The translations under genes and the position numbers were made by a program. DNA of 64,000 bases, taken from contig JABCZR010000015.1 of assembly GCA_013289585.1 (NCBI GenBank), positions 62,001-126,000 on the forward strand, written 5' to 3'. The notes beneath the pieces were generated by a model. That model ran no database searches. It saw only the letters and a list, made by a program, of their open reading frames with translations, and was not told the origin of the DNA. Within the stretch, counting starts at the first letter, position 1, and every line of letters starts with the position of its first letter. The stretch is from Acidobacteriota bacterium. Its GTDB lineage: Bacteria > Acidobacteriota > Terriglobia > Acidiferrales > UBA7541. Below, in pieces: positions 58,135-60,408 of the stretch.

Positions 58135-59127
58135 CTATGAGCTGGCCACGGCCCGGCGAAGCACTTCGCGTGAAATATTCGCTCCGCTTACCACCAGCAC
58201 AACGTGCTCGCCGCAATTGGTGCCGGAGTTCAGCAGCGCAGCAGTGCTCGCGGCTCCGGCGGGCTCTGCCAGGATGTGCTCCTCCAGCAGTAAAATCTCG
58301 ATGGCTCGCAGCATTTGGTCTTCACTCACGAGGACCAATTCATCAACGAGGTATTTCACGTCGCGCACGTTCGCCGCTTCGGGCGTTCGCGTTGCAAGCC
58401 CGTCGGCAATGGTGTCGCAGGTTTCCGTGCCCACGACTTTGCCTTCCTTCCAGGATAAGTAATACGAAGGCGCGCGCTCCGCCTGCACGCCAACGATCTT
58501 CACTTGCGGCGAAATCTGCTTCGCCGCCGCGGCGATCCCCCGAATCAGAGCGGTGTCGCCCATGGGCACTACGATCGCGCTGGCTTGCGGAAGCTGTTCC
58601 AGGATTTCACAACTGATCGTCGCGGGGCCGGCGGGAAGGTCCAGATCGGCCGCATCGTTTAAGAAATACACGCCTGGCTGCCTGGCGTGCTCCGCCGCCA
58701 GCGCGAATGCAGAAGCCGGGTCACTGTCCCTACTCTCCACAATCGCGGCGCCAAGAGCTGCAATCCGGGCGCGCTTCACCGGATTGCAATTCGCAGGCAA
58801 GAAAATCTTTGCCTCTATACCAAACTGCTTCGCCGCCAGGGCCACCGCGGCTCCATGATTCCCCGTGCTGCAAGCCACTACTTCCTGAATCGGCCCTCGG
58901 CTCATTCTTTGCGCCAGCCCCCAAAACGCCCCGCGCACCTTGAACGAACCCGTCGGCAGCTCCGTCTCCACCTTCAAATAAACATTCTTTCCCACCATGC
59001 GTCCGAGGAATGGTGCCGCCACCAGCCGTGTCGGCGGGAAATATTTTGCCAGGAATTTTCGCGCCTCGCGAATCGTGGAAATGCCCGGAACAATTTGTGG
59101 ATTGGCCGCGCCCGCCGCGGAATTCAT
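58135..59127 (-). CDS. Threonine/serine dehydratase-like PLP enzyme
   Basis: A 330-residue fold-type II PLP enzyme. The PLP lysine is in [15 protein letters not shown] near residue 62, the phosphate-binding loop [13 protein letters not shown] lies near 88, and the C-terminal serine/glycine turn is [10 protein letters not shown] near 318. The family includes threonine ammonia-lyase (catabolic type, without the ACT domain), serine dehydratase and serine racemase; choice among these is not possible by eye. Its ATG overlaps the aroF stop by four bases, so it is translated from the aroF transcript and would come under the same attenuation. Confidence 0.87.
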
Positions 59128-60173
59128 CCCGCCACCGCGGATACGGCTGTTTCTCTCTTCCTGGTTTCATTCCACAGATGAATGTAGGGCTCCAGATCCT
59201 TCATCATTTTCTGGAATTGCGGAAGATCGAGAGATTGTGCACCGTCGCTGATCGCTTTTTCCGGGGCCGGATGCACTTCCACGATCAAGCCGTCGGCGCC
59301 GATGGCTACGCCGGCGCGGGAGAGTGCCGGCACCAGGCTGCGCTTCCCTGTCGCGTGGCTCGGATCGAGAATCACCGGGAGGTGCGTTAATTCGTTCAGC
59401 GCGGGGATCGCCGCGATGTCGCAGGTGTTTCGCGTAACCGTTTCGAACGTGCGGATTCCGCGTTCGCACAGAATCACGTCGGAATTTCCGTGCGCCGTAA
59501 TATATTCCGCGGACATCAATAATTCTTTCACCGTGCTGCTCAAGCCGCGTTTCAGCAGCACCGGCCGGCCGCATTTTCCCAGGGCTTTCAGCAGCATGAA
59601 GTTCTGCATGTTTCGCGCGCCCACTTGCATCACATCCGCATATTTTGCCACCAAATCCACATCGCGGTCGCTCATCACTTCGGTGATGATGGCTAAACCC
59701 GTCGCTTGCTTCGCTTTCTGCAGCAGCTTCAACCCTTCTTCTTCCATGCCCTGAAAATCGTAGGGTGAAGTCCGTGGCTTGAACGCTCCGCCGCGCAGCA
59801 TCTTCGCGCCCGCTTTCGCAACGCCTTCCGCCGCCTGCATAATCTGCTTTTCCGATTCCACCGAGCACGGCCCGGCCATCACGATGAATTCGTCGCCGCC
59901 AATTTCCGTGCCATTTATCTTGATTCGCGTTTTGCCTGCGCGGAATTCCTTGCTCACGAATTTGTACGGCGCGGAAATCCGCACCACCTTTTCCACCTGC
60001 GGCATGGCCTCGACGGATTCGAAGCACGCGGTCACGTCGCCGACGCCCACCACGCCGATCACCACGCGCTCTTCTCCCTCGATGGAGTGCACCTTGTAGC
60101 CGAAGTGCGCAACCTGTTCGCGGACTTCATCAATCTCTTCGCGCGTCGCGTGCAGCTTCATGGAAATAATCAT
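59124..60173 (-). CDS. aroF: 3-Deoxy-7-phosphoheptulonate (DAHP) synthase, type I-beta
   Basis: First enzyme of the shikimate pathway: condenses phosphoenolpyruvate and erythrose 4-phosphate. A 349-residue protein with an N-terminal ferredoxin-like regulatory domain (about 1-80, [20 protein letters not shown]) and a TIM-barrel containing [11 protein letters not shown] near residue 108, [18 protein letters not shown] near 128 and the metal-binding segment [12 protein letters not shown] near 272. The N-terminal domain of the Thermotoga enzyme mediates Tyr/Phe inhibition, so feedback control is expected. GAGAGGG lies eight bases before the ATG. An aromatic leader peptide and terminator precede it. 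Confidence 0.95.
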
Positions 60174-60243
60174 TGTGAAACCCTCTCAAGTTCTGTTTTT
60201 CTTTTCTTCGAAACTTTCTGCCAAAAAAATAATGGCGTAAAAC

Positions 60244-60270
60244 AAAAAAACCCACTCGCTGCGAGTGGGT
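60244..60270 (-). terminator. Attenuator terminator upstream of aroF
   Basis: On the minus strand ACCCACTCG/CGAGTGGGT (9-base stem, 3-base loop) is followed by seven T. It lies 45 bases after the leader peptide stop and 70 bases before the aroF ATG, inside the aroF leader. The 5' arm (CCACTCGC, 60261-60268) can also pair with GCGAGCGG (60305-60312), which would form an antiterminator with one mismatch. Confidence 0.85.
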
Positions 60271-60315
60271 CGAATCTTTTTTGCCGATTCAGATTACAGA
60301 AGCGCCGCTCGCCAC

Positions 60316-60372
60316 CTAGATGGGTGGACCGCTAAATCGAAACCAATACGAATAGGCGCGAACACGAATCAT
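60316..60372 (-). CDS. Aromatic-amino-acid leader peptide of aroF (18 aa)
   Basis: An 18-codon open frame, MIRVRAYSYWFRFSGPPI, with five aromatic residues in seven (Tyr, Tyr, Trp, Phe, Phe at codons 7-13) followed by TAG. Directly at the stop is a CCACC/GGTGG hairpin. The layout matches known leader peptides in which ribosomes stall for lack of the amino acids made by the downstream pathway. There is no ribosome binding site; the ATG lies at the predicted transcription start, so it would be translated as a leaderless message. The assignment is inferred from sequence only. Confidence 0.72.
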   Translation of the reverse strand: MIRVRAYSYWFRFSGPPI

Positions 60373-60379
60373 GGGTCAG

Positions 60380-60408
60380 AGTATATTTCCTCTCTTTCCA
60401 GGAAACAA
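60380..60408 (-). promoter_or_regulatory. Promoter of the aroF leader transcript
   Basis: On the minus strand TTGTTT (60403-60408), a 17-base spacer and TATACT (60380-60385). The leader peptide ATG starts eight bases after the -10 box, i.e. at or next to +1. It sits between the CAP gene stop (60457) and the leader, so aroF has its own promoter. Confidence 0.6.

Follow-up and report, generated by a model that had tools for sequence, protein, structure and literature searches.

What controls aroF, the gene of the DAHP synthase at the entry to the shikimate pathway, in this member of the Acidobacteriota? The gene lies on contig C15 of a 4.73 Mb genome assembled in 32 contigs, within what we call the window, the whole stretch of 64,000 nucleotides that was analysed. 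Based on our computational observations, we propose that aroF, of the type I-beta kind, is very probably governed by a ribosome-mediated transcription attenuator whose leader peptide would be translated by leaderless initiation. The promoter, leader reading frame, aromatic codons 7-13, terminator and antiterminator segment that the earlier note had described were confirmed to the base when the minus strand was read again, and the locus is arranged as follows.

60403..60408, minus strand: -35 hexamer TTGTTT, from sequence reading, with a 17-nt spacer to the -10
60380..60385, minus strand: -10 hexamer TATACT, from sequence reading; 7 nt separate the hexamer from the ATG
60372..60373, minus strand: predicted transcription start, from the -10 spacing, at the leader ATG or one base before it
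60316..60372, minus strand: leader peptide ORF MIRVRAYSYWFRFSGPPI, 18 codons, ATG at 60372-60370 and TAG at 60318-60316
60334..60354, minus strand: control codons 7-13, Tyr-Ser-Tyr-Trp-Phe-Arg-Phe, from the sequence; TTTCGATTT forms codons 11-13
60353..60366, minus strand: segment 1 (codons 3-7), from the fold of the window RNA; predicted anti-antiterminator that pairs with segment 2 when there is no ribosome
60327-60323, minus strand: CCACC, from the sequence, an arm alternative to segment 1
60316-60312, minus strand: GGTGG, from the sequence, which with CCACC brackets the leader stop
60305..60316, minus strand: segment 2, antiterminator 5' arm GGTGGCGAGCGG, overlapping the leader stop and extending just beyond it
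60312-60305, minus strand: GCGAGCGG, within segment 2, from the sequence
60261..60271, minus strand: segment 3, terminator 5' arm GACCCACTCGC, from the terminator scan, common to terminator and antiterminator
60244..60271, minus strand: intrinsic terminator hairpin and T run, from the terminator scan and covariation
60181..60187, minus strand: Shine-Dalgarno-like purine-rich GAGAGGG before aroF, from the sequence
59124..60173, minus strand: aroF, DAHP synthase with a ferredoxin-like regulatory domain, from profile matches, 70 nt beyond the terminator

The terminator hairpin is ACCCACTCG-CAG-CGAGTGGGT (60270-60250), and its T run ends at 60244. No Shine-Dalgarno sequence for the leader ORF was found within the predicted transcript. 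The promoter is missing from the promoter scan because its -35 agrees with the consensus at 3 of 6 positions and the threshold of the scan is 4; the -10 agrees at 5 of 6. The AroF protein matches NF006421 at 490 bits and comprises the domains DAHP_synth_1 and DAHP_snth_FXD; with its ferredoxin-like domain, we take it to belong to the type I-beta class of DAHP synthases. A gene resembling PALP-fold threonine/serine dehydratases (58135-59127, minus strand) overlaps the end of aroF by 4 bases, and the two probably share one transcript. Elsewhere in the window an Acido-Lenti-1 RNA (RF01687; 28916-28961, minus strand) scores 44.2 bits, which exceeds its gathering cut-off.

How would such an element operate? 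Transcription would begin at or beside the ATG of the 18-codon leader, which would therefore have to be translated without a Shine-Dalgarno sequence, that is, by leaderless initiation. If any of the aromatic aminoacyl-tRNAs became scarce, the ribosome would stall within codons 7-13 and leave segment 2 (60316-60305) free to pair with the terminator 5' arm, and the antiterminator so formed would allow RNA polymerase to continue into aroF. When all three aromatic amino acids are ample, the ribosome would reach the stop and cover segment 2, so that the terminator would form before aroF. Without a ribosome, segment 2 could be held by the 5' part of the leader, and termination would then be favoured too. 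Most likely, then, aroF would be switched on only under shortage of Phe, Tyr or Trp. What we infer from the sequence is the position of the 5' end, that the leader is translated and that aroF responds to amino acids.

The first line of evidence is the recurrence of the leader before related genes. The conservation set consisted of the best 80 of 250 aroF relatives plus the window (81 loci), from which L015 and L068, with less than 50 nt upstream, were dropped to leave 79. The best 26 AroF relatives are 84-96% identical; their genomes derive mainly from metagenomes and bear the labels Acidobacteria (many gp2), Terriglobia or Candidatus Acidoferrales. A short aromatic-rich leader ORF, in which codons for products of the pathway are clustered as in attenuators, stands upstream of 69 of the 79 genes; in the other 10, which have enough upstream DNA, no such leader was found. 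The tests of spacing, codon bias and substitution were made on 66 leaders, the spurious ORFs of L057 and L073 having been removed; L059, whose terminator had escaped the caller, L010 and L052 were restored by eye to give 69. Under a strict filter, which demanded an ORF with an ATG start, four or more F/W/Y within 8 codons and TAnnnT at a distance of 5-10 nt upstream, 59 of the 79 regions passed; 30 dinucleotide shuffles gave 0.2 on average and never more than 1, and the reverse complements gave none. The aromatic leader before aroF relatives is not due to chance. Phe, Tyr and Trp are all encoded in 64 of the 66 leaders, and in 67 of 73 distinct peptides from a set that was picked by an RNA model and not by its ORF. 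Substitution rates at the three codon positions (0.20/0.14/0.22; 188 synonymous against 245 non-synonymous single changes) provide little independent coding signal for the leaders. The alignment of relatives that the earlier note had proposed thus recovers aromatic codons, terminator, antiterminator complementarity and -10-to-ATG spacing in most of them. The element is also present in a relative that is in culture, Acidobacteriaceae bacterium KBS 96 (L066). Five of the relatives devoid of a leader (L054, L067, L072, L073 and L079) have in common an inverted motif, TACACCA...GGTGGT, roughly 100 nt ahead of aroF, a possible operator or other leader element.

The promoter spacing that had been claimed for the window is repeated across these loci. 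In 62 of the 66 leaders the start codon is preceded by a TAnnnT -10 box at a distance of 4-12 nt, in most cases 6-9 nt, and 49 of these 62 have a TTG -35 at a spacer of 16-19 nt, where a shifted control yields about 5. Shine-Dalgarno-like 4-mers precede only 4 of the 66 leaders but 58 of the 66 aroF starts at the same loci. The -10 box is thus close enough for transcription to start at the start codon and a Shine-Dalgarno sequence is missing, which is the pattern of leaderless genes. The leaderless genes of three Acidobacteria genomes have been estimated, reportedly by Zheng et al. Their share across three such genomes is put at 13.3%, with TANNNT near the start as the criterion for a leaderless gene (PMC3160421). 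For the aroF leader, the spacing between promoter and ATG is what suggests leaderless initiation.

The codons of the leaders bear a signature of their own. Phe is encoded by TTT in 77% of cases against 28% in aroF, Tyr by TAT in 54% against 26%, and Arg by CGA in 38% against 7%. Among 77 elements chosen by the RNA model, an Arg flanked by two aromatic codons is CGA in 42 of 64 cases, against 7.1% in aroF; these elements partly overlap the first set of relatives and several come from the same species. The bias suggests that selection has favoured either slow codons or the RNA sequence itself in the leaders. We consider rather unlikely, though worth stating, a more far-reaching reading, in which a leaderless sensor with three inputs would let the charging of tRNA-Phe, tRNA-Tyr and tRNA-Trp jointly set entry into the shikimate pathway, timed by a conserved slow-codon core (TTT CGA TTT and similar), with several origins or transfers possible within the Acidobacteriota. 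As its initiation would be leaderless, this switch would also report the capacity of the cell for leaderless initiation. If this were true, aromatic synthesis would be tied to the state of translation, and the solution may have arisen or moved repeatedly (aroF in Terriglobia, aroF in f19, trpE in f13).

The RNA of these leaders offers two mutually exclusive pairings, both of which are results of the computation. The terminator 5' arm, with a CCCACTC core, has two partners: the 3' arm GAGTGGG, or an upstream copy GAGTGG that often extends to CGTTGG opposite CCAAC and that sits at, just past or inside the end of the leader. The complementarity between the downstream segment and the terminator 5' arm that had been claimed for the window recurs in most relatives. 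The duplex of segments 2 and 3 is more stable than same-segment shuffles (p<=0.05) in 56 of 65 leaders, L033 being left out (mean z -2.86); that of the window itself is borderline (p=0.075). Covariation was examined in alignments of 22 (A1) and 30 leaders (A2), chosen by group, and in A3, where 99 of 100 chosen sources were matched and which was fitted to the terminator and not to the antiterminator. In the 99 aligned elements the terminator, which lies between leader and gene as in an attenuator, is paired in 99.1% of cells, and two-sided changes affect 6 pairs and 61 cells, a result reached in 0 of 500 shuffles, with at most 2 pairs and 16 cells in the slid control. The covariation of the terminator is strong and, like the anatomy, conservation and gene context of the leader, is shown directly.

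For the antiterminator, which excludes the terminator and lies in the region of the leader stop, the covariation is moderate and partly ambiguous. It is paired in 89.9% of cells of the 99 elements, against 24-48% when slid by 1-3 columns, and its 26 two-sided cells compare with a shuffle mean of 13.4 and were reached in 0 of 500 shuffles; the shuffle test is inflated by the kinship of the sequences. The number of two-sided pairs, 6, was reached in 18 of 500 shuffles. Since the antiterminator slid by one column gives 5 pairs and 24 cells, pair and cell counts cannot separate it from the control; it is set apart by its covariation score of 0.131, as no slid version exceeds 0.080. In the smaller alignments the signal is slight, with 1 pair in A2 and 0 in A1. 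There are loci at which all three segments have changed in concert, to GAGCGG/CCCGCTC/GAGCGGG in L200 and to GGGTGG/CCCACCC/GGGTGGG in L144 and L243. The leader stop precedes segment 2 in the group of the window and follows it in the MNA...WRGAFL and RGASA groups; in either arrangement a ribosome that finishes the leader ORF should cover segment 2 or have just cleared it.

A partition-function model of 63 leaders (L027, L033 and L041 left out) gave results in keeping with the stall-and-stop logic that the earlier note had set out. In the nascent state, that is, RNA up to but excluding the terminator 3' arm, the antiterminator exceeds a probability of 0.5 in 62 of 63 leaders if the ribosome is stalled at the most favourable aromatic codon, but in only 6 if it is at the stop; with no ribosome the number is 39. 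In full-length RNA it does so in 30 of 63 in the best stalled state and in none with the ribosome at the stop. The terminator of that RNA passes 0.5 in all 63 leaders when the ribosome is at the stop, and in 58 when no ribosome is present. The antiterminator of the window is among the weaker ones, with a nascent probability of 0.45-0.70, and in full-length RNA it is never dominant, the stalled state included. Antitermination would therefore have to win kinetically. The hairpin of CCACC and GGTGG that had been claimed for the window is less distinct than proposed: both arms bracket the stop, but without a ribosome the predicted fold prefers pairing of codons 3-7 with segment 2 and is not confined to that hairpin. 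Protection of segment 2 in the absence of a ribosome is likewise uneven across the set, given the 39 of 63 leaders with a nascent antiterminator and the 58 of 63 in which the full-length terminator dominates.

Could these features be explained otherwise? The element might be an attenuator that is not leaderless, with an upstream transcription start and a ribosome bound at GAGAGGAAA (60394-60386) or another site. That purine stretch is indeed present in the window, and a few leaders would fit such a scheme, as the -10 box is too distant for a leaderless start in L003 (14 nt) and L014 (27 nt) and 4 of 66 carry the Shine-Dalgarno-like 4-mer. However, GAGAGGAAA falls inside the promoter spacer and is over-distant from the ATG for a normal Shine-Dalgarno sequence, and the close spacing is kept by 62 of the 66 leaders, by 68 of the 77 model-chosen elements (one had no room for the box) and by the separate element of f19, so that we attach little probability to an upstream start. 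Alternatively, sensing might reside in the peptide, which would bind a free aromatic amino acid and arrest the ribosome in the manner of TnaC; its core is strongly patterned as aromatic-Arg-aromatic, beyond mere aromatic content. Yet the position and order of the aromatic residues vary widely and Arg is absent from some leaders. Where Arg is conserved, its preference for CGA (42 of 64 against 7% in aroF) points to selection at the level of codon or RNA rather than of the residue. Moreover, arrest by an ample amino acid would free segment 2 and turn aroF on, which is the wrong sign, and control by peptide arrest is accordingly very improbable.

A third possibility is that the terminator acts constitutively, or answers to some other factor such as a protein or small molecule, and that the ORF is incidental. 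In its favour, aroF dispenses with the leader in some relatives. Against this stand the enrichment in aromatic codons, the placement of the stop at or around segment 2 and the specificity for one gene, repeated in about 130 elements, and no Rfam riboswitch or leader attains its cut-off at the site. Termination of that kind, with a leader of no function, is hardly credible, and we retain ribosome-mediated attenuation of aroF as the reading of the locus.

How widely is the element distributed? Covariance model R1 was run on 399 genomes of the class under stricter filters, by which weak matches were possibly lost, and matched 172 of them at E<=0.01. At E<=1e-6 there are 130 matches in 128 genomes by hand count: 29 of the window's family, 72 of f3, 24 of f92, 3 of f97 and none of f2. 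In 127 of the 130, aroF follows shortly downstream, as found by tblastn in 126 and by eye in L153, where its start lies at the contig end; the matches of L194 and L253 lie at contig ends. The 77 model-chosen elements comprise 73 of the 130 and 4 weaker matches. In 74 of them the start of an ORF coincides with the model start or lies no more than 12 nt away; at least 4 aromatic residues are encoded in 72, and a -10 box is present in 68, one having no room for the test. L256 appears degenerate, and in L259 the aromatic residues are spread out. A second model, R2, gave 37 matches in 35 of 95 genomes of the order, of which five (E 8e-5 to 5e-3) are probably due to chance. Among the 89 genomes of the window's family, a close aroF (74-100%) is present in 33 and the element precedes it in 30; no element was found before the close aroF of G398, G412 and G563. 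Weaker matches ahead of aroF occur in f97 (L188, E 2.1e-4) and f3 (L196, E 1.7e-6). In the genome of the window, no leader element precedes the aroF paralogs on contigs C13 and C3, and no comparable design was recognised upstream of trpE, ilvB, leuA and pheA; ilvB begins where an ilvD-like ORF ends.

Several loci met in these searches deserve mention in their own right. In L227 (G485, contig C496), the one remaining match of the 130, a leader and terminator are followed by what looks like the start of aroF, cut short after about 21 codons, and the same genome holds a further copy (L195) ahead of an aroF matching at 75%. In L248 (G418) and L262 (G745), the same type of leader and a terminator precede an aroF only 49-50% identical to that of the window, so that an exchange of the element or of the gene is possible. 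Weak R1 and R2 matches without aroF (L180-185, 191 and 197 in f2; L192 and L193 in f1) were set aside, as most of them resemble ordinary terminators. One of these loci (L180:490-626; G195, f2) has an ORF MTTISNTFSFRCCCCCNVTGVRG with five consecutive Cys codons, a terminator and a gene for an AhpC/TSA-type peroxiredoxin; no TAnnnT box lies close to its ATG, and this leader-like ORF is possibly a cysteine-sensing attenuator.

When R1 was run on 396 genomes of the phylum, four weak matches outside the class turned out to be separate attenuator-like leaders. In f19 (G030, G043, G068; L279, L280, L282) a Trp-rich leader MMRNQLADIRVTSCANWFWWPWHFTDAAWVSHRPL precedes an aroF 55% identical to that of the window; its promoter elements are TTGACA and TACAAT, the latter 7 nt from the ATG, and a terminator is present. 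The G043 peptide is a close variant. In f13 (G010, L343) a leader MDVQPAGANNYFWCWYRQGGWSAF and terminator stand before trpE, with TTGACA-17-TATTCT 8 nt before the ATG. These two rule out that the element is confined to Terriglobia and, together with the aroF leaders of that class, place leaderless-looking aromatic leaders in three or more lineages of the phylum, which may have inherited them, acquired them by transfer or evolved them independently. A simple filter that required a -10 box was also applied to 97 upstream regions of other aroF homologs (38 of 40 plus 59; L302 has nearly no upstream DNA). It disclosed the leaders of L087 and L088, both from f3 genomes, and ORFs of doubtful standing in L103 and L104, and no leader in the remaining regions. 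The f19 genomes with the element lie outside this sample, and absence elsewhere is therefore only as good as filter and sample. In L104 (G351, f51) the isolated Tyr-rich ORF, MQKESGRKQIQRNTHPYYPLYYYYYYF, is 225 nt away from the 55% identical aroF that follows and has a -10 box 8 nt ahead of it; it lies in AT-rich DNA and may be a product of chance. Upstream of trpE in f30 (L345, L347, L348, L350, L353, L354, L355, L361) there are Trp-rich leader ORFs, for example MIERFQGYYWYWRWASYYARLRPLPAP and MKGTFSDPVSLWCWRRRPKSAWVVWSPVP, with a similar terminator (AGCCGTGAACGACTCGAGGCGTTCACGGCTTTTT and variants); they form a second attenuator-like family in Acidobacteriota, without a close -10 box.

How does the aroF leader relate to known systems? 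The logic of control codons, antiterminator and intrinsic terminator is that of the enterobacterial pheL-pheA and trpL-trp operons, whose leaders, unlike that of aroF, have ribosome binding sites. At the gathering threshold Rfam finds nothing at the leader site, and a permissive search of the window gave sub-threshold matches only, including Phe_leader RF01859 (22.8 bits, cut-off 55) and Trp_leader RF00513 (16.5 bits, cut-off 41). The aroR-aroF transcript of Corynebacterium glutamicum is reportedly leaderless, as Neshat et al. are said to have found in 2014. A leader peptide with aromatic codons (Phe-Tyr-Phe) precedes the DAHP synthase gene there, as here, and stalling is reported to raise transcription under Phe limitation (PMC11802643, PMC4046766, PMC3890552, PMC7356990) and Tyr availability to be without effect (PMC11802643). 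That leader, from the Actinobacteria, has F-Y-F only, whereas most of the leaders described here encode Phe, Tyr and Trp together, and the gene that follows them is for a type I-beta enzyme; the two were compared by motif alone. In ilvL-ilvBNC of C. glutamicum, going by the title of Morbach et al. and by PMC11857589, the start codon is one nucleotide from +1 and there is no ribosome binding site, mutation of the ilvL start codon lowers expression by 80% and a three-hairpin scheme is given; this system, from a different phylum, concerns branched-chain amino acids, the leader described here aromatic ones. The novelty that the earlier note implied for a DAHP synthase target and a leader peptide without a ribosome binding site does not hold, as aroR-aroF and ilvL are precedents.

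In the predictive literature, a table for Shewanella gives aroF an 'attenuator sensing tyr-tRNA', citing E. coli work (PMC2659441), and Naville and Gautheret have nearly no predicted Acidobacteria attenuator with an associated function (PMC2965389). In the available portions of the open-access literature, outside which most subscription papers lie, and which included PMC4833913, PMC2965389 and PMC3160421, no aroF leader or attenuator of Acidobacteria is described. The kind of attenuator is already known; what looks new is the phylum, the family, the joint input of Phe, Tyr and Trp, the type I-beta enzyme, the CGA/TTT signature and the wide, gene-specific conservation.

What are the implications for the Acidobacteriota? 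Leaderless initiation would recur as a design for leader peptides outside the Actinobacteria, which is consistent with the 13.3% estimate of PMC3160421. Additionally, about 130 natural variants are at hand for dissecting control codons, placement of the stop and antiterminator strength. For a phylum that is abundant in soil and hard to culture, a specific switch that answers to amino acids and is open to experiment would thereby be known at the first step of the aromatic pathway.
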